This document shows, in pieces, positions 5,274 to 46,751 of a stretch of 64,000 nt of DNA. The notes under the pieces were generated by a model. The model saw nothing but the letters and a program-made list of their open reading frames with translations, did not search any database and had not been told where the DNA came from. The stretch's first letter is position 1. Each line of letters opens with the position of its first letter. Source of the DNA: a virus; IMG/VR virus record IMGVR_UViG_3300050821_002260, positions 27,992-91,991 of that record, one strand, 5' to 3'. The position numbers and the translations under genes were made by a program.

Positions 5274-7215
5274 CTAAACCGTGCCATCATCTCCGAGAAA
5301 CAGGAAACGGCTATCAATCATGCCGACCTCAAAGCGGGAACGCGACTTGAAACGGTAAACTTCCATCTGGAACGACTGCCCAGATGCCGGATTCTCTTGG
5401 ATGATTTCCAAGGGGTCGCGGCGCTGAAAGACCAAGCACTTCTTCGGGTCGCCAAGAATCCAAACTTTGGAAGTCAGGAACCTGGATACCAGAAGCTTGT
5501 ACAAGCCTTGCAGCGGGTTCACCGTGTTGACGTAACCCGTAGCGTCAGAGGACGCGGACGGAACAGACGGCTGCAACGTAGAATTCAGCAGCTTGGCTCC
5601 CACGAACTTGTCGATTGGCGAAACCAATAGAGTGTTCGGAGAGACCAAGAACTTGTTTCCAAGTGGGTCCGTAATGTTCATCAGCGAAATATCTGCCGAT
5701 TCTAGGTTAGCTTGAGACAGACGCGTGAAAGTGGCAGGGCGATTGCCCTTCGGTAGAGTGTTGTATGTGCCGTTGCCCACTCCGCCAACGCCTACTGTAT
5801 CGTTGTTGAAAGTCACATCTGGGTCGACAGTGACCCCCTGGACCGTGAATCCAGTGCCGATAATCTTCCCGATCACGTAAATTTCTTCCATGATCTTGAA
5901 GTTTTCGCCCATCTGGGATGCACGGTTCTTAATTTGTCCCGTCTGCATTCTGTTACTTGCTAACCCTGCGACAACTAGCAAAACTATCGCAAGGCGGACC
6001 ACCTGTTTCCAGTGGTCTCTACTTGTCACCAAGCAGTTCGGACTATATCTTTTCGGAGTCATGCTGCCCTCCGAGTCTGGCGTGTAGTCTCTACGGATTT
6101 CATGAGTTTCTGAAAATGAGCCTTCCAGTAAGACCTATTTACATTTGTTCTAGTGTGACAAGGCACGCAAAGAGAAATCAAGTTGTACATCCAACAGTTC
6201 TTCTTATCGTAGTTTATGTGATGAACCGACAGACGCTTTGGGTTTTTCTTATCACACTCTCTACAAGTGTGATTGTCACGAACTAGAACTCTTCTCCTAA
6301 GCCTGCGAGTCCACCGTTCGTGATATGGATGCTCTGTAGAACCACCGTTCCATAGCGGATGATTCTTACCGGCCATGACACCGATGTGAGCCAAACTAAG
6401 AGCATCCTTCTGAGCCTCTGTACGTTTCATACCTAGATTGTGAGAACCGTTTTCTCGATTATATCTCTTCAGTGACCTTGAAATTCTAGAGCCAACTTCA
6501 GGTCTCGAAGCTGGATTTCTCTTTCCAAGTTTAGATTGGCTAATTCTCTTTCGGCCTTCTTTCGTCTGACGACACATTTCTGTGCCATTCTTTTTGAAGA
6601 AAGCTATAACGGACTTACTGATTCGGCGACGGACGGAGGCTCTCTTAGCCGGGTTCTTGCTTCCCAGCTTAGAGGCCCTTATCTTGGCCTTTGTTGCTTC
6701 CGTATGATGCCAACCTTTTCCTCTCATGATCTTTCCTCGGTATTGTCTCGTCAGTTGACGAGAGGTTCACCGATATAGCCAGATTTATCGACGACCAGTG
6801 TTAACAAATCGTCGTCAAACAATTCGCGCTCGAACGCCTCAATCATACCGAATTTCTGGTTGGTCAAGTGGCGGTCGAGTCCAACTACTGGATTGTCCTG
6901 GAACTCTTGACCACGATCAACTCTCTTCGGTAGATTGGGACGGAACAGCGGAGCGTAATACTCTTGGAAGCGGCGGGATGCCACTTCTGTGACTAGATCA
7001 GGATATACGACCGGGACCGTGTTGTAACTGTTGATTGCATAAGTTTGGATACCCGCCCTCAACAGTTGGCCGAATGCAGACTCAGCATTAGCTTCCCGCA
7101 ACCTAGTAGCCTGATTGTAGACAGACTCACGGAGGCGTTTGAAGCTGAGCTGAGGGCTGAACCAATCGATCTTGGCTGCGACCTCTTCCCATGGACCTAC
7201 TGGACGTGTGCTCAT
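5274..7215 (-). CDS. Major capsid protein, gene interrupted by a group I intron (two exons)
   Basis: Exon 1 is 6758-7215 and exon 2 is 5274-5964. Joining them gives 1149 nt, a 382-residue protein. Exon 1 alone would end at a TGA only six codons past the inferred splice site (reading ...GYIGEPLVN-stop). Exon 2 continues with LASNRMQTGQIKNRAS in the frame that the splice restores. ATG 7215 is preceded by GGAGGC. The call rests on gene order (protease-scaffold, decoration-type protein, then this gene), length, and a following terminator; no signature motif was used. The N-terminus carries two L-R-E-(S/A) motifs at residues 28-31 and 39-42, candidate prohead protease cleavage sites. The exact splice junction is inferred from the U-before / G-last rule and frame restoration. 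Confidence 0.8.
5965..6757 (-). other. Group I intron in the major capsid gene (about 793 nt)
   Basis: The 3' part holds AAGATATAGTCC (6040-6051), the classic P3/P7 core sequence of group I introns. The upstream GACTA in the end of the HNH frame can form P7 with TAGTC, and CGGAG/CTCCG can form P8. Downstream hairpins include GACCAC...GTGGTC with a GAAA tetraloop and a GCGATAG/CTA..TCGC stem (P9-type). At the 5' end, CTCGTC and GACGAG around AACT form a P1-like stem over the predicted splice site. The last exon base is T (6758) and the last intron base is G (5965), as expected. P1 shows U-A rather than the usual U-G at the splice site, so the boundaries may be off by a few bases. Confidence 0.85.
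6059..6727 (-). CDS. HNH homing endonuclease encoded in the group I intron
   Basis: A 222-residue protein. The N-terminal half carries NUMOD3-type DNA-binding repeats (HHTEATKAKIRASKLGSKNP and a second copy near KRISQSKLGKRNP). The C-terminal half is an HNH nuclease: CRECDKKNPKRLSVHHINYD with KKN and a closing CVPCH zinc pair. ATG 6727 has SD GAGGAAAG and begins 30 nt into the intron. The 3' end of the frame overlaps the intron core (the P7 strand). It is expected to cut intronless capsid alleles and spread the intron. Confidence 0.88.
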   Translation of the reverse strand: MRGKGWHHTEATKAKIRASKLGSKNPAKRASVRRRISKSVIAFFKKNGTEMCRQTKEGRKRISQSKLGKRNPASRPEVGSRISRSLKRYNRENGSHNLGMKRTEAQKDALSLAHIGVMAGKNHPLWNGGSTEHPYHERWTRRLRRRVLVRDNHTCRECDKKNPKRLSVHHINYDKKNCWMYNLISLCVPCHTRTNVNRSYWKAHFQKLMKSVETTRQTRRAA

Positions 7216-7233
7216 TTTCTTCTCATGCCTCCA

Positions 7234-7755
7234 TTAAATCGTCGTCAACTGCGTGTACTGCGGACGCAGGTTAATCAGGATTTGAGTTACGCCTTGAACG
7301 CCGGTGATTCCGATAGATGCAGAAGCAGAAGTTGAAGCGTATGGACCAGACATAGTGAAGAAGTTTTCAGGGGCGACGTAACCAATGACCGCCGAACCTG
7401 AAGCTGCCGTATGCCTGATTTTCTGGGGATCTGCACCAAACGTGACTGCGTCGCCAACGTTATACGTCGCATTGTCATCAACCGTGAACAAGCACATACC
7501 ACGAGTGATGATAGCGATCCTAGGAACCGGGAGTGCTTGGTTCAAGCTAGGGATGTTGTTCGTATCGTTGGAAACACCGATGAACAGAGCGGCTGCGGTA
7601 GCGGAAGCTGCGTCGGCTGCTACGATAGGAGTCGCGACTAGGTTTACTGCGTCCCATTTCATCATATCGCCGGAGTTGAATTGGGTGATAAGATTGACGG
7701 GAACGCCACTGACGCGCTCCTTTTCTATTTTTACTACGTTAAACGGTTGCGACAC
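7234..7755 (-). CDS. Probable capsid decoration / head structural protein
   Basis: 173 residues starting at GTG 7755 behind GGAGGCG. The sequence is beta-rich and Ala/Thr-rich, with GDMMKWDAVNLVATPI, a segment GDAVTFGADPQKI and a C-terminal INLRPQYTQL. It resembles DUF2190-like or gpD-like decoration proteins, which often sit between scaffold and major capsid genes as here. The start FNVVKIEKERVSGVPV is typical of short capsid-associated proteins. The function is inferred mainly from position. Confidence 0.55.
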   Translation of the reverse strand: MSQPFNVVKIEKERVSGVPVNLITQFNSGDMMKWDAVNLVATPIVAADAASATAAALFIGVSNDTNNIPSLNQALPVPRIAIITRGMCLFTVDDNATYNVGDAVTFGADPQKIRHTAASGSAVIGYVAPENFFTMSGPYASTSASASIGITGVQGVTQILINLRPQYTQLTTI

Positions 7756-7770
7756 TTGTTCGCCTCCAGA

Positions 7771-9084
7771 CTACTCGTCGTCTTTCTTCATGGGCACGCC
7801 AAGTTCGGCCAGCCCTTCTTGGAGATCAGAGTTCTGCCCGGATGTTCCCCAGGATGCAAATCCGCCTCTGGCTCCACTGCCTTCAACTGATTCTTGTAGA
7901 CGTGACAAAGCGCCTTCCGTAGCAGACTCTAGGAAGTACGCCGATTCCTTGATTTTCCTGATTTGCTGCTTGACCGTCTTGCCGAACAGTTGAGGTAGCA
8001 AAACGTTCTTGGCGTTCTCAGGAATAATTTCCTTGTTGACCGCTTCACGGAGCAATCTGCGAGCGGTATCTCCAGAATGGATGTAGAACAGTTTCCCGCG
8101 GAACATCTGGATTCTGTCCTCTTTCTTGGCAACGGATTCGCGGAGACGCCTGACCAGACCCGCCAGATGTTCGATGCGGCGATTCGCTTCTCTGACGATC
8201 GGCTTGGCGACTCGTGCTTGACGGCGATTACGCGCGAAGCGGGAAGTCTTCAGCTTATAGGACTTGCCCACACCTGACGTGGATTTGTCCTGTTTGCCAA
8301 AGTCTTCATCGCTATCGTCATAACCGCGAGTGGGATCTGCTCCCTTGGGAAGTGCGCTATGCCCAGAGTGCCCGAGTCCCCCGGCATAAGACGCTTTCTT
8401 GATTGGAGCCCCTTGACCGCTGTCATCCGCTTCTCGTGACAGACGGCGACCGCGACTGGTACGTACTGGACGGCGGCGATTGCTTGCTTCAGCTGCTACG
8501 TTTGGACGCTCGGTATCAAAGCCTTCATCTTCGAACGCTTCATCCATGTCGTCCATGTCATCGTCGTCGTCATCCATATCACCATCATCGTCGCCTTCTG
8601 TGGAAGCCACAGTGCGTGAAGAACCTGGAGCGCCTCCACCGGCTGGCTGACCTCCGCCCCCGCCCATTCCACCTGCTTGCGGAGGCATTCCACCACCCAT
8701 TCCATCCTCGTCTTCGTCCTCCATGCCTTCGTCTTCAAAGCCTTCCATGCCCTCATCCTCAAGACCTTCCATGCCTTCGTCTTCGATCCCCTCTTCAAAA
8801 TCATCGTCTGATTCTGAGGAAGCCACTCGCCGGCGATTGCCAGAAGCCTTGACCGTTTGATATTTGCCGTCACCGCCGTAGTCGTTGTGGTCGCCGATAT
8901 CGCCACGGTCCTCTTCGTCTTCTACATCGGCTTCTTCAAGCTCGTTTTCGGTGTCTTCTGGGTCCGGTTCGTCTACAATTTGATTGTCTTCCCCTGTCCC
9001 GTCTGAGGCTTGCAGTCGCCGCTTACCTTTGCGGAAACCGCGCTTGCCAGATCCGGCAGAGGCCTTCACGTGCTTTTTCGCCAT
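7771..9084 (-). CDS. Putative internally initiated scaffolding protein (nested in the protease-scaffold gene)
   Basis: Residue 415 of the 851-residue fusion is a Met codon (ATG 9084) preceded by GGAGGTAAGG, the strongest ribosome-binding site in the gene, 5 nt before the ATG. Initiation here would give a 437-residue product: a basic start (AKKHVKASAGSGKRGF), long Asp/Glu-rich and Gly/Pro-rich stretches, then a helical C-terminal region (HLAGLVRRLRESVAKK onward). Acidic plus coiled C-terminus is typical of scaffolds. The arrangement parallels lambda C/Nu3, where scaffold is translated from inside the protease gene. Confidence 0.65.
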   Translation of the reverse strand: MAKKHVKASAGSGKRGFRKGKRRLQASDGTGEDNQIVDEPDPEDTENELEEADVEDEEDRGDIGDHNDYGGDGKYQTVKASGNRRRVASSESDDDFEEGIEDEGMEGLEDEGMEGFEDEGMEDEDEDGMGGGMPPQAGGMGGGGGQPAGGGAPGSSRTVASTEGDDDGDMDDDDDDMDDMDEAFEDEGFDTERPNVAAEASNRRRPVRTSRGRRLSREADDSGQGAPIKKASYAGGLGHSGHSALPKGADPTRGYDDSDEDFGKQDKSTSGVGKSYKLKTSRFARNRRQARVAKPIVREANRRIEHLAGLVRRLRESVAKKEDRIQMFRGKLFYIHSGDTARRLLREAVNKEIIPENAKNVLLPQLFGKTVKQQIRKIKESAYFLESATEGALSRLQESVEGSGARGGFASWGTSGQNSDLQEGLAELGVPMKKDDE

Positions 9085-10326
9085 TGATTCCTTACCTCCA
9101 CTAGGATTGATGTTGCTGTACTGCTCTTCGTTGGACTGACCCGGACCCTTGCCTGAAATAGAAGCAGCGGCATGTAATGTTCGTGACGCCGCGAATGCCG
9201 CTTCTTTTACCTCGTCGGGATTGTCCGAGTTGTAAGCCGAAACGAGAGAGTCAGCAACTTCCTTTAGTTTCTCGGGACTAAGGGACCCTGCTTCTCTCGT
9301 TCTCTTGGATTTGCTGCCCATGATTCTATTTACTTTGTTCCTGCGACTTTCTAGCATCTTGATGAAACCGCCTCGTGCTGCCGGTTCTGTAACGACGTCT
9401 GCACTGTCTACACGTTGAAATTCTTCTACATAATTGACTTCCTCACCGCCCATTTGACCTTGCCGAGTCTTGCCCACGGCGTTGATGGAAATGCCGAACA
9501 GGTTGACCGCCGTGGGGTCAGTCAAAATTGTGTCAATCATGCTGGTCAGCCACTTCGCGGAAGGGAAGAAGTGGAGCTTGCCATTGAGCCTAGTTTTGCC
9601 GGTCTTGGGATTCTTGTCTACGAAGCAGTCGCTGTACCATCCCACCAAATCCTTCATGCTGCGTTCTGGCAGCGTTTTCTCTGTGATCGCGTCTGGATGG
9701 TCGGCGTAGGCTTTGGCACCGTTGAAAACCTTGACGCCAGATTGGAGCGCTTCGGCGGAATAAAAGTTGCGATCGCGCGAATTTCCAATTCCCTCCTCTA
9801 TGATGGTTACTAGATAGACTCTGCCTTTGCCGTTTTGTTTCTTACCATCTAGAGGCTTACTAATTTCGTCTCTACCCTTTTCCGTAAAAGGGTGGTTGAA
9901 TGAAGATTCACGTATCTTAGAAGCCTTGAAACGGCGGGATTCATGAGTCCCGGGCTCAGCGTTATCCCAAGGATGTCCGAATTTCGAGCTAAACTCTTTA
10001 TCTTTATCTAACGCTCTTGCTCCGTTTTGTGCCCATGCACCCATCTTATCCCATTCTCTAGACGTCCCATCACTAGAGTACCAATTTCTAATCTGACTAA
10101 CGTCTTTGTCGTTAGCATTTTGCCTTAGTCTACTAAGAGCATCTGCTATGTGGTCTTCAGATGGAATCTTTGGTCTACGATTAGTGGTGTTTCCAGAACC
10201 TTTTTTCCCGCCTCTAGGTCCTGAGCCTGGACCGCCAGCGCGTATTTGTCGTCCACGCTTATCGGAAATCAATCGCTGGACACCCGATCGTTGAAGCTGT
10301 CCCTGCGAACTTGCTGAGGTGGTCAT
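7771..10326 (-). CDS. Prohead maturation protease fused to scaffold
   Basis: 851 residues. Residues 1-30 are basic; residues 31-37 are the GGPGSGP motif, followed by a hydrophilic module to about residue 165. Residues 166-330 look like a herpesvirus-assemblin-type prohead protease: VYLVTIIEEGIGNSRDRNFY, catalytic His candidate in YADHPD (His210), catalytic Ser candidate in GISINAVG (Ser280), and SADVVTEPA at the domain end. The remainder is scaffold-like, acidic, and may also be made alone from ATG 9084. Several L/I-x-E sites (KIRES, KTRREA-like, RLRES, KIKES, RLQES) could be self-cleavage points. ATG 10326 has no strong SD and follows the extended upstream frame by 3 nt. Confidence 0.75.
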   Translation of the reverse strand: MTTSASSQGQLQRSGVQRLISDKRGRQIRAGGPGSGPRGGKKGSGNTTNRRPKIPSEDHIADALSRLRQNANDKDVSQIRNWYSSDGTSREWDKMGAWAQNGARALDKDKEFSSKFGHPWDNAEPGTHESRRFKASKIRESSFNHPFTEKGRDEISKPLDGKKQNGKGRVYLVTIIEEGIGNSRDRNFYSAEALQSGVKVFNGAKAYADHPDAITEKTLPERSMKDLVGWYSDCFVDKNPKTGKTRLNGKLHFFPSAKWLTSMIDTILTDPTAVNLFGISINAVGKTRQGQMGGEEVNYVEEFQRVDSADVVTEPAARGGFIKMLESRRNKVNRIMGSKSKRTREAGSLSPEKLKEVADSLVSAYNSDNPDEVKEAAFAASRTLHAAASISGKGPGQSNEEQYSNINPSGGKESMAKKHVKASAGSGKRGFRKGKRRLQASDGTGEDNQIVDEPDPEDTENELEEADVEDEEDRGDIGDHNDYGGDGKYQTVKASGNRRRVASSESDDDFEEGIEDEGMEGLEDEGMEGFEDEGMEDEDEDGMGGGMPPQAGGMGGGGGQPAGGGAPGSSRTVASTEGDDDGDMDDDDDDMDDMDEAFEDEGFDTERPNVAAEASNRRRPVRTSRGRRLSREADDSGQGAPIKKASYAGGLGHSGHSALPKGADPTRGYDDSDEDFGKQDKSTSGVGKSYKLKTSRFARNRRQARVAKPIVREANRRIEHLAGLVRRLRESVAKKEDRIQMFRGKLFYIHSGDTARRLLREAVNKEIIPENAKNVLLPQLFGKTVKQQIRKIKESAYFLESATEGALSRLQESVEGSGARGGFASWGTSGQNSDLQEGLAELGVPMKKDDE

Positions 10327-10329
10327 AGA

Positions 10330-11251
10330 TTACCAGTTTGGATTCTTCCCTTTTAAGAGGTCGTTTTTCGGTTTCGCCCAAGAACCAAGAAAATTGTCGT
10401 ACTGTTTGTTTCTTCCCCTGTCATTCTTGTCGACTTCCCCTCGCATCGGTGGTTTGAGCTTGAGATCAGGCGGCGGATCCGATATCGCAGCATTGACTCC
10501 AGGGTTCTTAGCAAAGGGGTCACGCGACTCAAAGACCCCTCCGGCGACTAGTACGCAGCGCTCGGTCGAAATTTCTCATCTTGCTTTCCATGGACATATT
10601 TCCAGCGGTGCGCTTGCGTTCATTAGACTGTGCGTCGTCCTGCGGAATAACTGACATGACGCGTGGCTTGACCGCTTTAGACAGCATTCCCACACCATGT
10701 CCATAGCCGCGATTCTTCATGATATCTGGACGATCTTTGCTTTCGCCCTTTTTCGCGGCGTCGATAGCTTTCAGCTTCTTGCCCTGTTTATCCATATGGT
10801 CTTTGATGTGTTCCATGATGGCGACGCGGCGAGTCTCTGAAAGTTTGGGGTCAGACAGGAGCATTCTATGCTTGAAGATATGCTTGTTGTGGTCGTCGCC
10901 TTCCATGGCTTCATTGATTCGGCCTAGCACAGTGAGCGTCTTGTGCTCGCCGTCTATGATATCGTCATTGTCATAGTTGTCGGCAGAGGTCTTGTCGTTG
11001 GTGGGAACGCCACGCGAGAATTGCGCTTGACCGGTCGGTACGGACGCTTCTCGCAATCTACGCTGCCTGATGGTGGGAGTTTCCTGAAATGTGTCGTTGA
11101 AATATGACTCCGTGTCAGGTGGGAGGCGCTTTCTAGACTCTCTGATTCTGGACTGCTTTGTGACCGGGTTGCGACCGCCGAAACTGTCAATTTCAAACGT
11201 TGCGCCCATTTCCTCTTCTTGAGGAAGTGTGAAATCCGCCGTATTGAGCAT
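10330..11251 (-). CDS. Head-region protein with probable programmed +1 frameshift
   Basis: The zero frame (10529-11251) encodes 240 residues, hydrophilic, with candidate cleavage motifs RIRES and RRLREA. It ends CGG AGG GGT CTT TGA G. A +1 slip on CTT (CUU to UUU) continues into GAG TCG CGT and 66 codons (ESRDPFAKNP... to ...GKNPNW) ending with TAA at 10330-10332, only 3 nt before the next gene. That tail has no usable start codon of its own apart from a late ATG 29 codons from its end. The purine-rich AGGGG followed by CUU UGA copies the logic of the bacterial prfB frameshift site, though spacing is 2 nt shorter. Start ATG 11251 has SD AGGGAG. Function unknown; a sequencing error is the alternative. 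Confidence 0.6.
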
Positions 11252-11358
11252 TATTGATTCTCCCTAGAAGCGATTGGCGGGTGAGGAGGAAGATGGCCTG
11301 ACCCGCCTTCTCGCTGTGCGCTGACATAGGCCAATGCGTCGTGGATTGTCTTTGCCAT
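11251..11358 (-). CDS. Small hypothetical protein (35 aa)
   Basis: ATG 11358 to TAA 11251-11253, the stop overlapping the next start as TAATG. It begins MAKTIHDALAYVSAQREGG and ends Pro-rich. A copy of the AAAGTAATTCT motif lies 16 nt upstream, but no clear SD is visible. The tight overlap argues for translation; there is no recognisable family. Confidence 0.4.
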   Translation of the reverse strand: MAKTIHDALAYVSAQREGGSGHLPPHPPIASRENQ

Positions 11359-11373
11359 GTTATGTTCGCTATG

Positions 11374-11385
11374 TAGAATTACTTT
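11374..11385 (-). promoter_or_regulatory. Putative late promoter element (AAAGTAATTCTA)
   Basis: An exact copy of the recurrent motif, lying in the gap between the stop of the two-helix membrane protein and the start at 11358. Confidence 0.5.
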
Positions 11386-11387
11386 CC

Positions 11388-11591
11388 TTAGAATCTAAAT
11401 CCGTTGCCAGTGAGATGGCCGGTCATGTTCAGGAAGAACAGCAGGCAAATCAGGAAAAGGACCAGTCCAAGTATCATTTTCAGAGTTGGGTCTAATGCCC
11501 ATCCCAGTTTTGCCATGCCCCATTGCAGAATCAGAACGATGATGACCACGCAGATTACGAAGACCACGAACTCGACCATGAACCCTATCAT
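11388..11591 (-). CDS. Small membrane protein with two transmembrane helices (holin-like candidate)
   Basis: 67 residues with two hydrophobic segments: about 5-24 (MVEFVVFVICVVIIVLILQ) and about 38-58 (LKMILGLVLFLICLLFFL), a short linker (KLGWALDP) and a small polar tail. ATG 11591 has SD AAGGAGA. Size and topology fit a class II holin, but the gene lies inside the head module and no endolysin is adjacent, so a structural or other membrane role is equally possible. Confidence 0.5.
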   Translation of the reverse strand: MIGFMVEFVVFVICVVIIVLILQWGMAKLGWALDPTLKMILGLVLFLICLLFFLNMTGHLTGNGFRF

Positions 11592-11612
11592 TTCGTCTCC
11601 TTTAGGCTGGTT

Positions 11613-12332
11613 CTAAAATTCCTTGATGACTACGCCAGAGGTTTCTTGCTTTCTTGGTTGCGGCGGCATGTAGACGCCGGGATTCTTCCAGCCATTGATG
11701 CGCTCGACACCCTTGTGTTGATTGTTGATGAAATCTCCCATCATGTTGTATTGCTCGGAGTCGTCGTCGCGATTGGACTCTTGCGTGCGAGATTCGTTAT
11801 TGTGTTGCGACCATGCTATCTTGAACGCGCCAGGAACGCCAACTTTCTTCTTGAGTTTTCTTACTTGGTCTTCACGACCTGGAGGCGCTGACTCTCGTCT
11901 AGATTCCCCACCCTGAGAATACCCTTTGTCGTGCATCTTCTGAGCATACTTTCCACCCTCTACATCGTAAGGCAATTTCACCATCCTATATTTTCCACCT
12001 ATTTTCTTACGAGTGTAGTAGTGAGTCGGATGTCCATCTTTATCTTTACCTACATCACGATGTCGTGGTCCACTCCCCGGTCCGCCTTCAGCGCCCTCGC
12101 GCTTCTTCACGTCAGCATATCGCGGATCTACGTAGCCTTCGTTCGTCTTTGGTGCTTGATCTTTTGGGGAAACGAATGGATTGCCCTCACGCTGTGAGGC
12201 CCGACGCGCTCCGGTCCCGCTCGCTATCGTCCGTCTCCCAGACCGGTCGCCGAAGGGACCTCCGCATACTGGATTCTTTGGTGCGAGGCTGGCGGGTGAC
12301 CAAATCTGGCTCGACTTGGCGGCCTGCTCCAC
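11613..12332 (-). CDS. Head-region protein with GGPGSGP module, start unclear
   Basis: The frame is open from GTG 12332, but its first 48 codons overlap the C-terminus of the upstream gene in another frame and look non-natural. Natural-looking protein begins near the upstream stop (12187) with REGNPFVSPKDQAPKTNEGY, then EGGPGSGPR followed by a basic module (YYTRKKIGGKYRMVKLPYD) and a hydrophilic C-terminus (VYMPPQPRKQETSG). No ATG precedes the module and no SD is visible. It may be reached by a +1 shift from the upstream gene (GCG TGA G) or from a weak GTG. Function unknown; probably virion-associated. Confidence 0.5.
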   Translation of the reverse strand: MEQAAKSSQIWSPASLAPKNPVCGGPFGDRSGRRTIASGTGARRASQREGNPFVSPKDQAPKTNEGYVDPRYADVKKREGAEGGPGSGPRHRDVGKDKDGHPTHYYTRKKIGGKYRMVKLPYDVEGGKYAQKMHDKGYSQGGESRRESAPPGREDQVRKLKKKVGVPGAFKIAWSQHNNESRTQESNRDDDSEQYNMMGDFINNQHKGVERINGWKNPGVYMPPQPRKQETSGVVIKEF

Positions 12333-13425
12333 GTGGGAATTCGTGACCTAGACCGTCGTCGATTCTGCTGCGAGTGTTGGATTCTCGGCCGAAATTGGCG
12401 ATGCGCTTGCGACGTTTCGCACTTGCCATCATCGGCTTATTCGCGTCTTGGGGATTGAGCTTGACCGGGGGAGCGTTCGGGTCCTGGATATCCTGACTCG
12501 GCTGCTCGGATTTCTTCGGGACAGGGACAGGAGATTGCTTGCCACTGATGCCTGGAGTGGCTTCGGCAGAAGCTTTTAACCCTCTGCTGTTAAGATACTG
12601 ATGGAGTTCTCCAGCTTGGCTTCCTTGGCCAATCAGTCTTTGTCCTCCAGATTGCCCGACTTTGAAATGGTCCCATACACCTTTATGCAGCGTATTCTGA
12701 GAACCATTCATAGCGATGATATCCTTACCTTTTTGAAACTGATGGTAAGGTTGGGTTTTTCCATCATCATCCTTGAAACTAGTAGTTTTGACTTGCTTGA
12801 ACCCATGTTTCTGTAGAACCTTCGCCTTTAGCCTATTCCATTTAGGAATTTTGCTTCCACTAGATTTCTCTTTAGGATGTTTCCCACCTTGAGGACCAGA
12901 ACCTGGACCTCCTTCTCCCGCTTCACTCTGCTGCATCGACTGTCCCTGTTCAGGTTGCTGCTTTCCCTGTTTCGCTTGCTGCTTCGCCTTCGTAAAGATG
13001 TCTTGGTGATGTTCCATCGCGGCGACATGAGCGTGGCCGAGGTCAGAGTCCAGACCAGCCTTGTCCGCCTGCTTCTTGTGAAACATCATGGCGGCTTTGT
13101 TCGCTTTCATGATTGCTTTCGGTGGCAATTCGCCCATCTGGTCGCCGCCGTTCTCGAACATTTCCTGCAAGCGATTCCCTTCGCGAGTATACATCTTAGA
13201 AGCGCGGAAGTGCGCCAATCCACGATTGGTATTGATGCCATGTTTCGCAGATTGACGCAGGTGGAATTCCTTGGCTTCCTTGATGACCTGAGCGCCTGCT
13301 CTGTCTTCGCGCAATCGCTTGATTTCTGTTTTCTGCTTCTTCATGAAGTCGCCAAGCGTCGGCGGCGTATAGTTCGCGCCCGGTTCATCTTCGCCAGCAC
13401 AACCAATTCCAAGATAGTGGCTCAT
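12187..13425 (-). CDS. Head-region structural protein with GGPGSGP module
   Basis: 412 residues from ATG 13425 (SD GGAGGAT). Residues 1-160 are helical and rich in His/Lys/Gln (for example FHKKQADKAGLDSDLGHAHV). GGPGSGP is at about residues 172-178, introducing a compact module (KVLQKHGFKQVKTTSFKDDD ... LHQYLNSRGLKAS) that is AT-richer than its surroundings. The C-terminus is basic and disordered with KESSMRRSLRR. Two paired segments, FHLRQSAKHG and FHKKQADKAG, suggest an internal repeat (each followed by G-L and H-A/F). Likely a minor head or internal virion protein. Overlaps the upstream gene by 4 nt (ATGA-type). Confidence 0.55.
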   Translation of the reverse strand: MSHYLGIGCAGEDEPGANYTPPTLGDFMKKQKTEIKRLREDRAGAQVIKEAKEFHLRQSAKHGINTNRGLAHFRASKMYTREGNRLQEMFENGGDQMGELPPKAIMKANKAAMMFHKKQADKAGLDSDLGHAHVAAMEHHQDIFTKAKQQAKQGKQQPEQGQSMQQSEAGEGGPGSGPQGGKHPKEKSSGSKIPKWNRLKAKVLQKHGFKQVKTTSFKDDDGKTQPYHQFQKGKDIIAMNGSQNTLHKGVWDHFKVGQSGGQRLIGQGSQAGELHQYLNSRGLKASAEATPGISGKQSPVPVPKKSEQPSQDIQDPNAPPVKLNPQDANKPMMASAKRRKRIANFGRESNTRSRIDDGLGHEFPRGAGRQVEPDLVTRQPRTKESSMRRSLRRPVWETDDSERDRSASGLTA

Positions 13426-27443: not shown

Positions 27444-27698
27444 TCACAGCTTCTCTGGATACTGTAAAGGTACGAACCTGACATCATCAGATCCAGTCCC
27501 GTGTAGAAGTGGGGTGCCTGATGATGCGTTTGTAACAACGGTGTCCGCAGCAGCATTCACTAGTTTGCAATTTGTGAAATCATTGCCAGACACTTGGACA
27601 GCGATGCCAGATTTGACCATCGCTCTGGTCGTAACAGGATTCAATGTAGAAGAAACTACGGTAACTCCGTCGCTCTTTTTCAATGTGGCAGTTGCCAT
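27444..27698 (-). CDS. Small hypothetical virion-type protein
   Basis: 84 residues from ATG 27698 (SD AAAGGAG, TAATG overlap with the previous gene). Sequence is beta-strand and Thr/Val-rich (VTVVSSTLNPVTTRAMVKSG; CKLVNAAADTVVTNASSG). No motif recognised. Coupled to the pyrophosphatase-like multidomain gene. Confidence 0.5.
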   Translation of the reverse strand: MATATLKKSDGVTVVSSTLNPVTTRAMVKSGIAVQVSGNDFTNCKLVNAAADTVVTNASSGTPLLHGTGSDDVRFVPLQYPEKL

Positions 27699-29263
27699 TA
27701 TGCACTCCTTTTCTTCTTAAAGATAACTCGCCCGAATAGGCCGGATTTGTTTGCGTGTCTAAGTGCTTCCACTTGCTTCACTCTCCTGAGTTTCCCTTTG
27801 CTGAGAGCGTAGACAGGTATTTTCCTTTTCAGAGCATGAACTGTTTCACTGAACACCCCGGCTGTGAGACGCTTCCCTTTCGCTGGCTTGAGCACGAGGC
27901 GTTTAGATTTATCTATCTTCTCATGGAAATATCCCATGCCTAGCTCTGCGTGCTTCTTTGTCGTTGGAACGCTCACGCCTTCATTCGGGAATGCTTCTTG
28001 GATGCGGTCTATGTTCGCCTCTTCAGCGTCTGTATTGTAGTGAGACATTGGACGAGCGAAATATGTTTTCTTCGCTTCTCTGAGGAAGTTGCCCACTCTG
28101 GACTCGAAGGTCCTAGACGTTTTCATCTCTTTAGGCTTTAGAGCAGAGAGTTTATGACTTCCATTGCTATTGCTGCTCACAGCCATCCTATGACCGGCTG
28201 GCGATTGTACAATAGAATGGATAGCTTGGACTGCTCCTTCTGTACCAGTCAATCGAGAGCCAACTTCTAAAACTTTCCAGCCAAGTTCCTTTAGATGCTC
28301 CAGCGCTTCCTCATGACCACCCTTCAACTCTTCCTTTTGTTGCTCAGGAGTCCGTGGAGTAGTTGGTTGATTTTGCTGCATCTGCTGAGCGGCTTGCTTC
28401 GCTGCTCTATCTTTCTGTGCCTGAGCAATCATATTCAATTGAGGCTGAGTGCGGCTGACGACCTGCATCATGTTCATTGTGCGCGGGTCGTTTTGCAGAT
28501 TCTGCTGCATAGACTTTTGCTGATTGGTTTTGGCTGAACCGGCGTCTCTAGGATTTCTTACTCCCCACTTTTGACCCTTGACGCCATGCTCTCGCACTTC
28601 TGGATTTTCCATTATGTCTTGGTGGTGACCCAGAATCGACTTGGTCATGTCCTGGTCTGTGCCACGACCGGCCATTTGTCCAGTGGTAGCGAGATACGAT
28701 TCGTACTCTGGTTTCTCGAAAACATCTTCTGGAAGCTGAAGTGATGCGCCTGCTCGTGACGCCACTAGTTTCTTCGTCGTGTGCTTCTTTACAAAAGCAC
28801 GCTCCCTGAATTTCCACATTGGAATAGCGTCAATCCCACCGAAGAATTTGTCGTCATCATAATGTTGTTTGAAGCACCGTTTAGCAGCATCGGATGAGGC
28901 AAAACCCAACATGACCTTGTCCTCATCAAATTCTGCTCCGTCTGGCGTGTTGCAATGAACGACGTAGGCGAAAGCAGCATCTTCGTTTGGTCCCACAAAT
29001 ACATCAAGTGCGTCACCATCTACTCCTTCTGTGCCGGGGATGTATCCGTATGGCAGACGCATCTTGGTGCGCCACTCTTCGCCGTCGTCATCGACTCCCT
29101 TACGGACACTCCCCTTGCGATTCTCTATGCTGATTGGGATATTCTGGAACGTGGTCTTACCGTGGAGCTTACGATTTTCACGAAGGCGAATCATCTTCAC
29201 CTTGAAATCGTGAATCTCCTTGGGTCCCTGGAGTATCGTCCGGCCACGATCGTCTACGTACAA
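27698..29263 (-). CDS. Multidomain protein: InPase-like, HGVKGQKW motif, deoxyribosyltransferase-like
   Basis: 521 residues from TTG 29263 (SD AAGGGAAAG). Residues 30-170 match the phage inorganic-pyrophosphatase-like domain: MRLPYGYIPGTEGVDGDALD, VFVGPNEDAAFAYVV, EDKVMLGFASSDAAKRCF, FFGGIDAIPMWKFRERAF. Around residue 235 is EHGVKGQKWGVR. A helical Gln-rich linker follows. Residues 400-500 resemble nucleoside 2-deoxyribosyltransferase-like folds: TYFARPMSHYNTDAEEANID, GYFHEKIDKSKRLVL, LTAGVFSETVHALKRKIPVY. Candidate substrates are nucleotides or NAD-type dinucleotides. A RLREN motif is near the N-terminus. Possibly packaged and processed. Confidence 0.65.
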   Translation of the reverse strand: MYVDDRGRTILQGPKEIHDFKVKMIRLRENRKLHGKTTFQNIPISIENRKGSVRKGVDDDGEEWRTKMRLPYGYIPGTEGVDGDALDVFVGPNEDAAFAYVVHCNTPDGAEFDEDKVMLGFASSDAAKRCFKQHYDDDKFFGGIDAIPMWKFRERAFVKKHTTKKLVASRAGASLQLPEDVFEKPEYESYLATTGQMAGRGTDQDMTKSILGHHQDIMENPEVREHGVKGQKWGVRNPRDAGSAKTNQQKSMQQNLQNDPRTMNMMQVVSRTQPQLNMIAQAQKDRAAKQAAQQMQQNQPTTPRTPEQQKEELKGGHEEALEHLKELGWKVLEVGSRLTGTEGAVQAIHSIVQSPAGHRMAVSSNSNGSHKLSALKPKEMKTSRTFESRVGNFLREAKKTYFARPMSHYNTDAEEANIDRIQEAFPNEGVSVPTTKKHAELGMGYFHEKIDKSKRLVLKPAKGKRLTAGVFSETVHALKRKIPVYALSKGKLRRVKQVEALRHANKSGLFGRVIFKKKRSA

Positions 29264-31187: not shown

Positions 31188-31966
31188 GCTGCGATATCCA
31201 ACAAGTCTTGCTGAAAGATCGGCTGTGCGAAACCGACCGGGTTCTTAGCACCAATCCAATCCTTCGAGAACAACGTGTGCGATTCGTCACAGTATTTCAG
31301 CCAGAATGCCCACGTCATCTGTTTCAACTGTCCCCACGTGATGCAAATCGGCCCGATGTTATTGTAAGCCGGACAGAATACCGCGTGACCGCCCCACGAA
31401 TTAGGCTCCGTCGGGTCCGACTTCTTCAACATCTTGGCGAACCAGCTTCTATTGTCGAGTTCTACATCCCAGATGTCCTGCGTCTGCGCCGTGAGAGGCA
31501 GAGCTAGACCGATGTATACCCCGCCGAACAGGTAGATAGATTGCTTGACATGGAGAATATCATTTGGATTCGGGTCTGCATAGCCTAGCAATTCGTGACC
31601 GCCGAATCCGTTGTTCCTCCAGCTGTTGAGAACGGTTATCTCGTCGCCTCCTTGGTCAGTGGAGGAATCTGCCGGGTTGTAGCCGCATTCCTTTTCGTAG
31701 GCATCTAACACGACCGCGTCGGGAACAGTGATTTCTGTACCTAGATTCGCGGTCCAGATTTGGACCGCGTGACCCTTGGCTGCTTCTGTGCAGATGCCGA
31801 GAGTGTCGTTGAGCATCATCCCGAAACTTGTGATGCCCTTCGTGTAGTCCACAGTGACTGGCGGAGGAGGGAGCGCTTCGAACGCTATGTATCGCGCCAT
31901 CCTCAGCGTTCTATGGTCTACTCTGGGAGCTAGTTTGCCTAGCTTCATTGCAGCGTGACTAAGCAT
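31184..31966 (-). CDS. Papain-like fold protein (cysteine-peptidase-like)
   Basis: 260 residues from ATG 31966 (SD AAAGGAAA; an upstream in-frame extension to 32035 lacks an SD). Candidate catalytic landmarks: Cys in LNDTLGICTEAAKGHAVQIW, His in NSWGGHAVFCPAYNNIGPIC, followed by ITWGQLKQMTWAFWLKYCDE. The order Cys ... His fits a papain-type arrangement, but the third residue cannot be fixed. Possible roles are cleavage of peptidoglycan peptides (lysis or entry) or virion processing. Confidence 0.5.
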   Translation of the reverse strand: MLSHAAMKLGKLAPRVDHRTLRMARYIAFEALPPPPVTVDYTKGITSFGMMLNDTLGICTEAAKGHAVQIWTANLGTEITVPDAVVLDAYEKECGYNPADSSTDQGGDEITVLNSWRNNGFGGHELLGYADPNPNDILHVKQSIYLFGGVYIGLALPLTAQTQDIWDVELDNRSWFAKMLKKSDPTEPNSWGGHAVFCPAYNNIGPICITWGQLKQMTWAFWLKYCDESHTLFSKDWIGAKNPVGFAQPIFQQDLLDIAA

Positions 31967-32216
31967 TGTTTCCTTTCTTGGCACTCCACCAATCGGAGCA
32001 CATACTATCCGCTGGATAAGGCAGTTTTGGTCCACCGTTGTATAGGATAAAGTTTGGCTCCCGGCATGTTTTCTTGTCCGGATTCAAGTATTCACAGTTG
32101 AGGCACATTGAACCACCGCGAGGGACAGGTAAGACCGGTTTGTGATTATTGGGAAGCTTGAACTGCCCTGCTTCCCTGAAAGTGCTGAACGTGGATTCTC
32201 GGAGGCGTTTCAGCAT
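31959..32216 (-). CDS. Small four-cysteine protein (HiPIP-like or zinc)
   Basis: 85 residues from ATG 32216. Residues 1-20 contain RLREST and FREAG, the L/F-x-E motifs seen in virion proteins. Four cysteines: CLNC, then KKTCREP, then PADSMCSDWW. The spacing C-x2-C-x8-C-x18-C with a terminal C-x-x-W resembles high-potential iron-sulfur proteins, which end in G-W-C-x-x-W. Phage versions of such proteins exist in head modules. A zinc site is the alternative. Confidence 0.5.
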   Translation of the reverse strand: MLKRLRESTFSTFREAGQFKLPNNHKPVLPVPRGGSMCLNCEYLNPDKKTCREPNFILYNGGPKLPYPADSMCSDWWSAKKGNNA

Positions 32217-32217
32217 T

Positions 32218-32559
32218 CTACTTTCCAGCGACTCTCACACCCTTACCAGCATTTCCCTTAGGCTGAGTATATTTCTCTCCGAAGATGCCGAGTTTGCTTT
32301 TCTTTGTCGCTTCCGCTGCTCGCAGATTTTCTGGCTTGGAACCCTTCTTGACTTTCTTTTTGCCCTTGCTAGATTTCCCCATCGCCTCTGTGATGAATTT
32401 CTTCGCGCCGACTTTGGGCTCAGCAGATTTGTTTGGACCTCTTGAGGATTCTCTGAGGATTCTCTCTCCCATCCCGCGACCCGTGTCAGAGTCAAATATC
32501 GGCCCATAGATGTCATCATCTGGACCAGAATTTTGAACGGGAAAAATTGTAGTTGTCAC
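32218..32559 (-). CDS. Basic hypothetical protein
   Basis: 113 residues from GTG 32559 (SD GCGGAGG). Highly basic and Ser/Gly/Lys-rich (ESSRGPNKSAEPKVGAKKF; KSSKGKKKVKKGSKPENLRA), probably disordered. Contains RILRES, a candidate L-x-E maturation site. A nucleic-acid-binding or internal head peptide role is plausible. Preceded by a promoter-like element at 32576-32587. Confidence 0.5.
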   Translation of the reverse strand: MTTTIFPVQNSGPDDDIYGPIFDSDTGRGMGERILRESSRGPNKSAEPKVGAKKFITEAMGKSSKGKKKVKKGSKPENLRAAEATKKSKLGIFGEKYTQPKGNAGKGVRVAGK

Positions 32560-41674: not shown

Positions 41675-41880
41675 GATTTTTTCTTTGTCTTAGAGTTGGA
41701 GCCGTGCTCTACGTCGTACTGTCTCAGCTGTTTCTTCTTCTCTTTAGCGCAATGGGAACAGAATGGAGATTTAATGCCGTAGACAATCTTGCGTTCGTCT
41801 CTTAGAATTATCCTGTCTGGACGCGGACAATTTTCGCCTACGCATAGAGGCCATTCAATTTCTTTCTCGTTTCGATGCAC
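41671..41880 (-). CDS. Small zinc-ribbon-like protein
   Basis: 69 residues from GTG 41880 (SD AGAGGGT), overlapping the portal C-terminus by 26 nt. CVGENC and FCSHCAKEKKKQ give a C-x4-C ... C-x2-C set. Begins HRNEKEIEWPL. Basic C-terminus. Resembles phage cysteine-ribbon proteins of unknown role. Confidence 0.5.
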   Translation of the reverse strand: MHRNEKEIEWPLCVGENCPRPDRIILRDERKIVYGIKSPFCSHCAKEKKKQLRQYDVEHGSNSKTKKKS

Positions 41881-44800
41881 CGTACCCTCTTGGAGAATTC
41901 CGCTTGCCAGATGCTACTCCGTGTGCGGATTTCTCAGTGGGGAAATTCTCTGTCCTGGGCCTTTGGAGGCGCTCACCGTCTTGAGGCTTGAAGGGAGACA
42001 TAGATTCTTTCTGTTTGACACCTAGCATCCCAAATGTTTGTTTCAATTTGCTAATACCATGACCTTCGTCCTGTACTTCACCTTTGCTATTCCTGTGTTT
42101 CCAATGACCATCTGACCAGATTGTCAGTGTGCCTTTATTTGGATGCTTGTATGCCTTGACGTTGGAGTTTCCCTTGAGAAACTTAAATCCACTAGCCTTA
42201 GCTAGTTCCGTAACTTTCTTATGAGGGCCACTTCCAGGTCCACCTTCTTGAATTTCGCGTGGGAAGCGGTAGTGGCCGTCGCTGCCCCTGACCGCTTCCT
42301 TGTTCAGGTTGCCATGCTTCGCAGCTTTCTTTGCTTTGGTAATCAGGTCGCCTCTATCGAGCGACTTTTGGTCTCGCACCTTATGCGGAGACTGAATACG
42401 ATCCTGTCTCCTCCCGACCCCATGACGCTCGTACCGTAGATTTGCTGCTTCCCGTTTGATATTGCTTGCCATGTCACGTGGGTCGCGCCCTGCCCAAGGA
42501 TCATGCTTTCCATCTGCCCCCACGCTTGCGTTATGAGTTGTTGCAATTCCTTGTCTGCCGGGGGATGCTGTTCCGGGAGCAACGTCTTCATCTGATTCCT
42601 CCAAAGCGTTCTTGACGATACTTACGACCTGCCTAGCTTCCTTGTCTTCGCCTTCTTCAGCTTCTCCTGTAGACTGTTTGGAAGAGGATGAGCCAGACCC
42701 GCCTGCTCCTGGAATCTTGCCCATCCCCATTCCGCTTGCGCCTTTTCCACTTCCACCAGAAGACGTTCCACCTCCCTGACCCGTTTGAGCAGAGTCGGTA
42801 CCCTTGGTCACCTGCTGATACGCAGTATTGATCAAGAATTCCTTCATTGCATCTTCCTCTGCGATAGATTGCTGTTCCTGGTCGTAGTCGTAGCTGGTCA
42901 TCTGCATTTCCTTGGCGGCAGCAGATGCCGTCCTGCGATGCGACCACCACGACATAGACTCGCCGAACGCGAAGTCCTTCAGCTTCTCGGACCTGTTCTC
43001 TTCTGCGAGCGCTGGATATGTGGTCTCGACAGTGACGCTGAGGTCGCGCGGTATTTCGCCACGATCTTTGGCGCGTTCGAAGACCCGCTGCGCGTCTTGC
43101 AGGAAAAACTCTTCCATTAACTCTTGCTTGTCTTCAAACGTCTTGATGTCAGGCTCTGTGCCTACGAGCGCTTCTGCTTTCCCGCCGCCAGAACCGCTGC
43201 CCATGTATTGCTGTGATAGACCGACGCCCATGCCGATGATGACCAGCAACATTTCCCAGTCGCCTTGCGTCTCTGGAGCGCCGACTTCTGCCTTGACGCC
43301 GTTAAGTTCTGCCGCTTTGTTATGGATAAAGAAGCCGCCGGGAGTCGGGGGATTCATCATCTGCTGTTGGACCTGCTGGACTGTAGCCGCGTCGCCTTCT
43401 ACCGCGACGTCTAGGATGAACAGATTCGCCATCTTGTTGCGGACTACGCGGTCTGTAGCGTACTCCTTGATGCGCTTGAGCCAGCCCAAGACCGCGAATA
43501 GTTCGCTGCGACCGCGGACTTCGCCTTCCACTGTGTTAATTTTCATGTGGAAGTAATGGAGCGCTGGGACTTGTCGAATGATGAACTTGATTGTTGGGAC
43601 TGGTAGATCAACAAACCACATGTAGCGCGTGGGGTACTGCTGATGGATGTAAAATTCGTTGTCAGCGTCGTCTGGGTCCGTAATCACTTCCCAAACTGTT
43701 GACGGGTCCAGTTGGCGCAACTTCAATCCCCACGGCGCATCGTAGTACCGAATAAACTGTTCTCCAAAGACCAGTAGACTGCGGAGAATTTTCTTGCTCG
43801 TGATGTGCAGATTGTTCTTGGTCCAGTGCCTATCAAGGATGGTCTGGCATTGCACTTTCCAGTCTTGTGGCTGCCTGACCTGCCCACGAGAAATGTTTTG
43901 CGCCATCTGTTGCAGGTTGCCAGCGTTAGGAGTTTGCTTCTTCTGTGCCTGCTCTTCAGCACGAGACAGCGCACGCATCACTGTCATCTTGACGCCTTTG
44001 CCGAGTACGAACTGAGTGATGACATTGACTATCCGCTTGGCGATTGGATTATGTGTAAATGCTTGATAGGCTTTACTGTTGTGACTAAACACACCGATAG
44101 ACAAGGCGAAATTCTGATTCCTGTAATCAGATTCAGCGGTTTCAATGTGATAGACTTTTCGTTTACCTATTGGATAGACTGCCACAACTTTGTGATTCCA
44201 ATATTTTCCCCAACGAGCTCCTAACATTGCACGTATTTGCTTCTCTTTCTTCTTAGGATCTTTGTATCTCTTCTTCAGAGAAGCCACAGTTTTTCTTCTG
44301 CGTTCTGGTGTCCACGTCTTTGGATATTTTCCTTCAGCGTGTGCTTTCTTCTGGGCATCAGATAATTTTTTCCTGCCTTCTTCAGACACCTTTACGCCAA
44401 CCCTACCTTTAGAGATTGCTCTGTAAATCTCATTTCGCTCTCCAGAAGCGTGTTGTCTAGCGACCTCTTTAGAGCGTTTGGCATTCACTTCAGGAGTATT
44501 GTGAGCGCGGTGCAATTCCATGTGCTCAGGATAAGTCACAGCTTTCAGGTTCTGCGGTGTATTATTCGCTTTCCTAAAATCACTGTGATGAATCAAGTAG
44601 TGTTCGCCAGTTTCCTTAAATAATTGTGCTGTAGTCTTTCCGTTTTGATATTCGTAAGAAATCTGATGAGTGAATTCCCACTTTTCTGATTCAGGCTGCC
44701 ATAGACTTTCGTATCCAGACAAACCATTTCTTTTTCTGTAGATACGATACAACGGCATCATACTATCTTCTGGTAACAGTTTTCCAGATTCTTTGAAAGT

Positions 44801-45853
44801 GCCATCCCTCATTAACATCAGGTGGTCTTCTGACGCTATAAAAGACCTGCCACTATCTAGAAGCACGCAGACACATTCCTTCTCACCCATCTCGTACACG
44901 TTGGTCAGCTTGACGGGCTCAATTCGTTGTGAGTCTTGATTGAACTTATAACCCCAGACAAATTTCTTATGTTCTAATTTTTTCTTCAAATCTAGAATTG
45001 TCGGGTTCGTTCCATCGAGCAAGGCTATTTCTGTGTCTCCAGAAAAACAATGTTGATCGAGGTAGTCGAACCAGTACAATTGCTTGTTGTACGGTCCGGC
45101 TATCAGCGGCGTGAAGTCCGGCTCTCTTCCAGCTAGATTGAAACTGTTCCCGCCGTCCCAGTTGGGACTAATCTGCCCTACGCCGCCAGAGCTTCCGATG
45201 TCCTCCTGTGAGAAGAAGTCCTCGCGCAATTTCTTGTACTCGTTGACGAAGCCTGACTCCTTCAGCCTGCGACCGATTTGCCTGTCCACCTTGTTATAGA
45301 GGCCGACCAGCTTGGGATTCAGCCTGACGCCAGCCACGGTCGCTTGTCCGGCTTCTCTCAGCTTGGTTCTTTTTGCTAGACCCGACAATAGCTCCGTCTG
45401 AATCTTGGCTTCTCTCAGCTTTCGGTAGTACGGGGATTTCATGTAGTCAATGAGCGTGGGATAGTGCGCTTCTCTGAATATCCCGTTCTTCATTTGTGCT
45501 ACTGAGGAAATGATCAGCTTAGCGTCCACGTCCATGACGACCGCTTCTTTGTGGTAGGTGATTTGCGTCTGACTGGTTTCGTCTGGACGGGAGATAGCGT
45601 CCATTTCTTCACGAGTCGGTGGCGTGATGTACGGATTGGACATCGTGATATACGGCTTGAACGGGGCGACCTTGGACTCGGGGTCGATTGTGGGGAGCGG
45701 CGCTCCTTCGTCTACGTAGTCCTTGCCATTGTTGAACTGGTCCTTCTCGCGTTCCAGTTTGACGGACTGCTTGCCAGACGCGCTACGAATGAAAGGGAGC
45801 GGCGCGTTCTTGTTGGGAGGCGAGTTGGTCGGGTTGACTACTTTGGAAGCCAT
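41855..45853 (-). CDS. Portal protein precursor interrupted by an HNH intein
   Basis: 1332 residues from ATG 45853 (SD CAGGAG). After removal of the 324-residue intein (residues 269-592) the portal is 1008 residues. Portal character: AYQAFTHNPIAKRIVNVITQ, SKKILRSLLVFGEQFIRYYD, ALHYFHMKINTVEGEVRGRS, EYATDRVVRNKMANLFILDV. The C-terminal 300 residues are an accessory extension with a Gly/Ser-rich linker and a GGPGSGP module near residue 1200, followed by VTELAKASGFKFLKG. L-x-E motifs (KLREA twice, RLKES, KLRED) lie in the N-terminal 210. A promoter-like element lies upstream. Confidence 0.88.
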   Translation of the reverse strand: MASKVVNPTNSPPNKNAPLPFIRSASGKQSVKLEREKDQFNNGKDYVDEGAPLPTIDPESKVAPFKPYITMSNPYITPPTREEMDAISRPDETSQTQITYHKEAVVMDVDAKLIISSVAQMKNGIFREAHYPTLIDYMKSPYYRKLREAKIQTELLSGLAKRTKLREAGQATVAGVRLNPKLVGLYNKVDRQIGRRLKESGFVNEYKKLREDFFSQEDIGSSGGVGQISPNWDGGNSFNLAGREPDFTPLIAGPYNKQLYWFDYLDQHCFSGDTEIALLDGTNPTILDLKKKLEHKKFVWGYKFNQDSQRIEPVKLTNVYEMGEKECVCVLLDSGRSFIASEDHLMLMRDGTFKESGKLLPEDSMMPLYRIYRKRNGLSGYESLWQPESEKWEFTHQISYEYQNGKTTAQLFKETGEHYLIHHSDFRKANNTPQNLKAVTYPEHMELHRAHNTPEVNAKRSKEVARQHASGERNEIYRAISKGRVGVKVSEEGRKKLSDAQKKAHAEGKYPKTWTPERRRKTVASLKKRYKDPKKKEKQIRAMLGARWGKYWNHKVVAVYPIGKRKVYHIETAESDYRNQNFALSIGVFSHNSKAYQAFTHNPIAKRIVNVITQFVLGKGVKMTVMRALSRAEEQAQKKQTPNAGNLQQMAQNISRGQVRQPQDWKVQCQTILDRHWTKNNLHITSKKILRSLLVFGEQFIRYYDAPWGLKLRQLDPSTVWEVITDPDDADNEFYIHQQYPTRYMWFVDLPVPTIKFIIRQVPALHYFHMKINTVEGEVRGRSELFAVLGWLKRIKEYATDRVVRNKMANLFILDVAVEGDAATVQQVQQQMMNPPTPGGFFIHNKAAELNGVKAEVGAPETQGDWEMLLVIIGMGVGLSQQYMGSGSGGGKAEALVGTEPDIKTFEDKQELMEEFFLQDAQRVFERAKDRGEIPRDLSVTVETTYPALAEENRSEKLKDFAFGESMSWWSHRRTASAAAKEMQMTSYDYDQEQQSIAEEDAMKEFLINTAYQQVTKGTDSAQTGQGGGTSSGGSGKGASGMGMGKIPGAGGSGSSSSKQSTGEAEEGEDKEARQVVSIVKNALEESDEDVAPGTASPGRQGIATTHNASVGADGKHDPWAGRDPRDMASNIKREAANLRYERHGVGRRQDRIQSPHKVRDQKSLDRGDLITKAKKAAKHGNLNKEAVRGSDGHYRFPREIQEGGPGSGPHKKVTELAKASGFKFLKGNSNVKAYKHPNKGTLTIWSDGHWKHRNSKGEVQDEGHGISKLKQTFGMLGVKQKESMSPFKPQDGERLQRPRTENFPTEKSAHGVASGKRNSPRGYGASKRERN
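44078..45049 (-). other. Intein with HNH homing domain inside the portal
   Basis: Residues 269-592 of the precursor. Cys1 with block A CFSGDTEIALLDGTNPTILD; block B GRSFIASEDHLMLMRDG (the T/S-x-x-H site); block F KVVAVYPIGKRKVYHIETAE; block G ending FSHN with +1 Ser (SKAYQAF). The middle holds an HNH-type nuclease: HYLIHHSDFRKANNTPQNLK, then NUMOD3-like helices (SEEGRKKLSDAQKKAHAEGK). All splicing residues appear intact: Cys1, penultimate His, terminal Asn, Ser+1. Confidence 0.92.
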
Positions 45854-46672: not shown

Positions 46673-46751
46673 TTTTCTTCCCCTTCTTGTTGTGCAACCA
46701 GTCTGCATTTTCTGCTGTATCGTCGATGCGTACAGTTTTTATTTTCTTCAT
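46611..46751 (-). CDS. Small basic protein (46 aa)
   Basis: 46 residues from ATG 46751, whose ATGA overlaps the ADP-ribosyltransferase stop. Reads MKKIKTVRIDDTAENADWLH then a Lys/Asn/Gly-rich tail (NKKGKKNGNKQTPNRSEKAV). Overlaps the zinc-ribbon gene in another frame by 62 nt. The coupling suggests it is translated; function unknown. Confidence 0.45.
   Translation of the reverse strand: MKKIKTVRIDDTAENADWLHNKKGKKNGNKQTPNRSEKAVGKTKGH

Follow-up and report, generated by a model that had tools for sequence, protein, structure and literature searches.

In a 64,000-nucleotide stretch of DNA from an uncultured phage (the window; bases 27992-91991 of the 91,991-base IMG/VR virus record IMGVR_UViG_3300050821_002260), the predicted head proteins were found to be enriched in the short motif [LI]xE[AS]. 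Most of these motifs are very probably cleavage sites of the phage's own prohead maturation protease, which would also free cargo domains marked by GGPGSG or HGVxGxKW tags. The head cluster lies on the minus strand and comprises the major capsid, an unassigned 173-amino-acid (aa) gene (7234-7755), an 851-aa fused protease-scaffold protein and three smaller proteins. Four relatives from IMG/VR (L007, L008, L009 and L013) and a distant fifth (L071) served for comparison; a scan of a genome collection for relatives gave no match, and the family is small. Coordinates are compiled in Table 1, where, as in the text, a slash marks a predicted cleavage position.

Motif enrichment in head proteins

Using residue shuffles that keep composition to obtain expected counts, the seven open reading frames (ORFs) of the window head set (3,490 aa) contained 16 [LI]xE[AS] motifs versus 3.4 expected (4.8x), while the form preceded by a basic residue, [RK][LI]xE[AS], occurred 12 times versus 0.5 (22x). 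The remaining 102 ORFs on the 92-kb contig contained 35 versus 25.6 (1.4x). The window head set was picked after the finding had already been seen, and the four relatives and T4 constitute less biased tests. Head proteins of the relatives showed 47 motifs versus 9.4 (5.0x), and their non-head proteins 21 versus 16.4 (about 1.3x). In the T4 positive control, analysed by the same test, head proteins processed by the protease gp21 yielded 14 versus 3.8 (3.6x), and neighbouring unprocessed proteins, including the portal gp20, 2 versus 1.5 (1.3x).

All motifs quoted in the initial annotation were present, namely those of the capsid, the scaffold-protease, a 240-aa protein, the portal, the proteins at 31959 (RLRES) and 32218 (ILRES) and the InPase protein. 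Two of its placements required correction: RIRES and RRLREA belong to the ORF at 10529-11251 and not to a protein at 10330, and the portal, InPase, 31959 and 32218 proteins lie outside the range 5274-13425 to which the list had been assigned. Since [VM]xE[AS] (3.6x) and [LI]E[AS] (2.2x) were also raised in head proteins of the relatives, position 1 is looser than L/I. The proposed pattern L/I-x-E-(A/S) is better written as (R/K)-(L/I, loosely M/V/F)-x-E/(A/S).

It is very unlikely that the motifs merely arise by chance from Arg/Glu/Leu-rich amphipathic helices in scaffold-like proteins. Charged helices are indeed abundant in head proteins, and a few matches, e.g. GRINEAM in the 10529-11251 protein or the NUMOD3 repeats (KLSEA) of HNH genes, look structural and may be ordinary helices. 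However, composition was kept in the shuffles, and reversed and sister motifs in the window head set mostly remained near 1x, none being significant except the overlapping basic [RK]x[RK]E[AS]. No enrichment was observed for [LI]E.[AS], [LI].E[KR], [LI].E[LIV] or the reversed motif, [LI].D[AS] was depleted in the relatives, and RLREA remained invariant amid variable stretches.

The protease-scaffold protein and predicted maturation cleavages

The N-terminal part of the 851-aa protein is the predicted protease. Residues 164-343 matched the phrog_15531 "head maturation protease" profile with an E value of 5.3e-9, which places the protein within this profile, and tblastn matched Arthrobacter phage proteins that are annotated as capsid maturation proteases. 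The segments ADHPD, GISINAVG and SADVVTEPA are conserved in the protease alignments, with H210 (ADHPD) and S280 (GISINAVG) as candidate catalytic residues; their resemblance to the HP...GxSxxxxG...D-V--P motifs of gp21 was noted by eye only, and HP is missing from the protease of Microcystis phage Mae-JY22. Upstream of the domain stands (K/R)(I/L)RE, and the domain ends in MLES; the counterparts in the distantly related Amigo and Mae-JY22 are LLES and LVES, and L071 has FIERK there. Protease and capsid form a single protein in Mae-JY22, with LAE/A immediately ahead of the capsid domain.

In the proposed pathway, whose cleavages, order and timing we infer from these patterns, the protease would cut after Glu during head maturation and free itself at KIRE140/S, before the domain, and MLE326/S, after it. 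It would also reduce the scaffold to peptides, shorten the capsid so that it starts near residue 42, trim the N-terminal end of the portal and act on several small head proteins. Cleavage after Glu is known from T4 (L/I-x-E), phiKZ (S/A-x-E) and SPN3US (A-x-E), and there are precedents for propeptides with multiple sites, for proteases that cut themselves and, in SPN3US, for processing of the portal N-terminus (PMC5694885, PMC9026906). The capsid belongs to the Mu gpT-like class (PF10124; 24.7 bits versus a cut-off of 20.1), with ANAESAFGQ, following RLRE41, as the candidate mature N-terminus. The portal falls into the lambda-type class (PF05136, Phage_portal_2; 36.3 bits versus a cut-off of 32.9), and two of its three N-terminal sites recur in both relatives that have a portal.

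A role of the motifs as docking or targeting signals for prohead assembly, recognised without cutting, is highly improbable: several sites are N-terminal and comparable short N-terminal signals such as the T4 capsid targeting sequence are known (PMC9026906), but T4 targeting propeptides are themselves removed by gp21 at the same motif type, and docking leaves both the sites bracketing the protease domain and the swappable inserts described below unexplained.

Several observations weigh against maturation cleavage. An hhalign comparison detected no homology between the window protease and T4 gp21 (S77; probability 0.6%, E 0.098), and no Pfam match, PF03420 included, was obtained; the enzyme is not demonstrably of the gp21 type. 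The structure model of the protease reached a predicted local distance difference test score (pLDDT) of 65 with no match in the PDB, a sequence search of the PDB was empty, and the capsid model (pLDDT 29) was useless and gave no fold for placing sites. Conservation of scaffold sites 761 and 794 is incomplete among the relatives. Motif Glu was conserved more often than other Glu residues (15 of 21 cases versus 83 of 222; p 0.003; eight alignments), which favours cleavage, but this comparison pools sets of 2 to 5 genomes and is only moderately strong. Nevertheless, we regard the interpretation of the motifs as predicted maturation sites as supported, because the enrichment is restricted to head proteins, recurs in four relatives and is reproduced by the T4 control, while the sites occupy propeptide-like positions and a predicted head protease is linked to them.

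Swappable inserts and tagged domains

Comparison with relatives revealed swappable inserts in the head proteins, which start with a GGPGSG or HGVxGxKW tag and in many cases close with an LxE-like site. The same protease would cut both at the Glu preceding a tag and at the LxE-like site on the distal side, thereby setting free small accessory domains carried within head proteins, comparable to the packaging of Alt and internal proteins by T4; predicted ADP-ribosyltransferase and pyrophosphatase domains sit behind or beside such sites. This cargo would be packaged in the head and later ejected.

Ahead of the protease domain, L009 carries another insert (start GVKGMKWGV, end RLRE) and the distant L071 reads VKE/GGPGSGP...KMRE/S; L013, like L007 and L008, lacks the insert. 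At the portal C-terminus, relative G002 (L265) contains a different insert, FTE/HGIKGQRW...TQE/S, in another frame, and G004 neither of the two. A 440-aa protein of G004 reads SRLRE/S, EVRE/GGPGSGP, DMLE/HGVKGMKWG, FLRE/S and TIRE/A. In the ADP-ribosyltransferase protein, SLEES lies close to the N-terminus and TRLTE/HGVLGQKW at residues 33-44, and the InPase protein (27698-29263) has RLREN around residue 27.

In the window family, the residue directly before GGPGSG is Glu in 9 of 11 cases. At position -2 before GVxGxKW, Glu was found in 6/6 sites of this family and His in 175/177 generic GVKGMKWG sites, which is supportive of cleavage but not proof; HGVxGxKW is in general not phage-variable. 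The tags resemble sites for cargo release that are adapted to the protease of the respective phage.

Some further observations concern these proteins. The G002 portal segment continues out of frame with its own tag (L265 13393-13833), corresponding to a frameshift or split gene. The inserts at 42002-42244 (portal) and 12559-12912 (412-aa protein) appear similar by eye, and a Pfam search gave no significant match for them. The 521-aa InPase protein (minus strand) combines an HGVKGQKWG tag with LREA/IQEA sites, the slash here separating alternatives.

The residue before GGPGSG in other phages

A post hoc analysis of GGPGSG in other phages covered 126 tags in 17 groups, near-duplicates having been removed and related contigs merged, and its results hold among the matches listed. 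The residue before the tag showed a within-group concordance of 0.79 versus 0.32 under label permutation (z 6.8), while -2 and -3 showed no significant concordance. The residue is constant inside a genome and varies from one genome to another, with examples being K in 33/33 and 25/25, F in 6/6 and 5/5, and A in 4/4 tags. Tag codons were diverse (the K 33/33 are AAG 25 and AAA 8; Ser is encoded by six codons), so selection is a more likely cause of the constant pre-tag residue than recent copying. With the tags masked, L316, which has K before every tag, contained 15 [LIV]xK[AS] versus 3.0 and 4 [LIV]xE[AS] versus 3.1, the opposite of the window family; in two other K-type genomes (G005 and G012), [LIV]xK[AS] enrichment was weak or mixed. 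In phages related to T4-like cyanophages, Glu stands before the tag, matching gp21 specificity, though in two independent contexts only. Four small proteins of L294 start with M-GGPGSG and so resemble a final product in which the tag is already exposed.

We consider it fairly probable that GGPGSG tags mark, in phages widely, junctions at which the phage's own maturation protease releases cargo, with the pre-tag residue as P1 (Glu here; Lys, Phe, Ala or Leu elsewhere) and GGPGSG as the new N-terminus. For the tags alone, constancy of the preceding residue by tag duplication, without any cleavage, offers a rather unlikely explanation. It would account for tandem related tags in some genomes and for the somewhat concordant positions +10 and +12, but it fits poorly with the codon diversity, the immediate fall of concordance at -2 despite removal of near-duplicates, the untagged [LIV]xK[AS] enrichment in one K-type phage and the M-GGPGSG starts. 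Pfam searches of tag-bearing contigs for capsid and S78 found nothing, and capsids chosen by eye in G014, G018 and L316 seemingly lack propeptides.

Some tagged proteins carry zeta-toxin and ADP-ribosyltransferase domains. L278 encodes a 905-aa phage protein (10164-12881, minus strand) with an intein, an F/GGPGSGP tag and a zeta-toxin-like domain; G014 (L320/L321) has two short proteins sharing a 20-residue, targeting-leader-like leader that ends in FKLKQF/GGPGSGP; and L294 and L314 contain several proteins of <100 aa starting with M-GGPGSG.

No paper on the GGPGSG tag or GVKGMKWG was found in the literature collection searched, and cargo release would provide a first testable explanation for a tag that is common in phage proteins and seems to have lacked one. 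It is further suggested that head structural proteins serve as carriers of exchangeable effector domains, ADP-ribosyltransferase and zeta-toxin-like ones among them. If true, the genomes of uncultured phages would reveal both the specificity of the protease and the effectors that are packaged and probably injected, opening a sequence-only route to the specificity of maturation proteases and to the sets of processed, packaged proteins.

Coordinates and accompanying features

The major capsid consists of two ORFs (7215-6751 and 6062-5274), between which lies a group I intron that contains an HNH gene. The intron (window 5900-6830, minus strand) scored 28.9 bits against RF00028 (E 3e-5), which is under the gathering score, and was not detected in an Rfam search at that score; it carries a NUMOD3-HNH endonuclease ORF (6059-6727). 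Inteins with HNH-like parts occur in the portal genes of the window (44078-45049, minus strand) and of G004 (L269 8821-12606), with different insertion points.

Table 1. Positions in the window of the head-protein features, predicted cleavage sites and tags
Feature	Position	Strand	Evidence or occurrence in relatives
Fused prohead protease-scaffold, 851 aa	7771-10326	-	phrog_15531 head maturation protease match
Protease domain, aa 165-327, ending MLE326/S	9346-9834	-	alignments
Scaffold site RLRE730/S	8134-8145	-	invariant, 5 genomes
Scaffold site LLRE761/A	8041-8052	-	3/5 genomes
Scaffold site KIKE794/S	7942-7953	-	window genome only at that column
Scaffold site RLQE812/S	7888-7899	-	E in 5/5 genomes
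Capsid exon 1, N-terminal part	6751-7215	-	alignment with intact capsids L007, L008, L009
ORF with capsid exon 2 (exon start QTGQIKNR)	5274-6062	-	PF10124 E 1.8e-5 and alignment
Predicted capsid site 1, RLRE30/S	7123-7134	-	E invariant, 5 genomes
Predicted capsid site 2, RLRE41/A	7090-7101	-	LREANAE invariant, 5 genomes
Portal with intein (aa 269-592)	41855-45853	-	PF05136 E 5e-9
Portal N-terminal site KLRE148/A	45407-45418	-	kept in all three portals compared
Portal N-terminal site KLRE167/A	45350-45361	-	kept in all three portals compared
Portal site RLKE199/S	45254-45265	-	two relatives: KRLQES, KRFRES nearby, different column
RIRE38/S, 240-aa head-cluster protein 10529-11251	11135-11146	-	3/5 genomes
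RLRE68/A, protein 10529-11251	11045-11056	-	RLREA invariant within variable region, 5 genomes
RLRE7/S, N-terminus of 85-aa protein	32193-32204	-	kept in relative G004
ILRE37/S, 113-aa basic protein	32446-32457	-	relative L273: RQLREAG near N-terminus
Insert ahead of protease domain, 111 aa, GGPGSGP...SKIRE140/S	9904-10236	-	absent L007, L008, L013
Insert in 412-aa protein, AGE/GGPGSGP...SAE/A	12559-12912	-	absent L007, L009; different in L008
Insert in 239-aa protein, GAE/GGPGSGP...SRRE/S	11889-12086	-	compare L013 fused protein
Portal C-terminal insert, IQE/GGPGSGP...KQKE/S	42002-42244	-	absent L269 (G004)
Tag RLTE/HGVLGQKW ahead of ADP-ribosyltransferase-like domain (46748-47914)	47786-47806	-	DRAT E 1.4e-7
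Tag EVRE/HGVKGQKW in InPase-domain protein 27698-29263	28568-28588	-	PF18823 E 1e-38

Comparison with known systems

Comparison with T4 gp21 and its substrates (gp22, gp23, gp24, gp67, gp68, Alt and internal proteins) revealed a similar L/I-x-E enrichment in head proteins, a capsid N-terminal propeptide, a many-site scaffold and a packaged ADP-ribosyltransferase, features that are predicted from sequence for the window phage. In contrast to T4, the window protease is fused to the scaffold and lacks a detectable gp21 profile match, the capsid is Mu gpT-like, the portal N-terminus is predicted to be cut (T4 gp20 is not), and accessory domains are embedded in head proteins instead of being solely separate genes. 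The proteases phiKZ gp175 and SPN3US gp245 (S80) likewise cut after Glu and are accompanied by a portal N-terminal propeptide, C-terminal self-cleavage of the protease and redundant sites (PMC5694885, PMC9026906), features that are predicted for the window phage; they differ in recognising S/A-x-E or A-x-E instead of L/I-x-E, and the genomes are unrelated. Polyvalent proteins (Iyer et al. 2017, PMC5512222) are similarly multi-domain phage proteins that are thought to be packaged and delivered, whereas their processing is tied there to an internal metallopeptidase and not to tags matched to a prohead protease. The phrog_15531 proteases of Arthrobacter Amigo-like phages are short and come without a large acidic scaffold, tags or inserts, but they share direct sequence similarity with the window protease, and in Amigo LxES likewise closes the protease domain and occurs again close to the N-terminus of the capsid.

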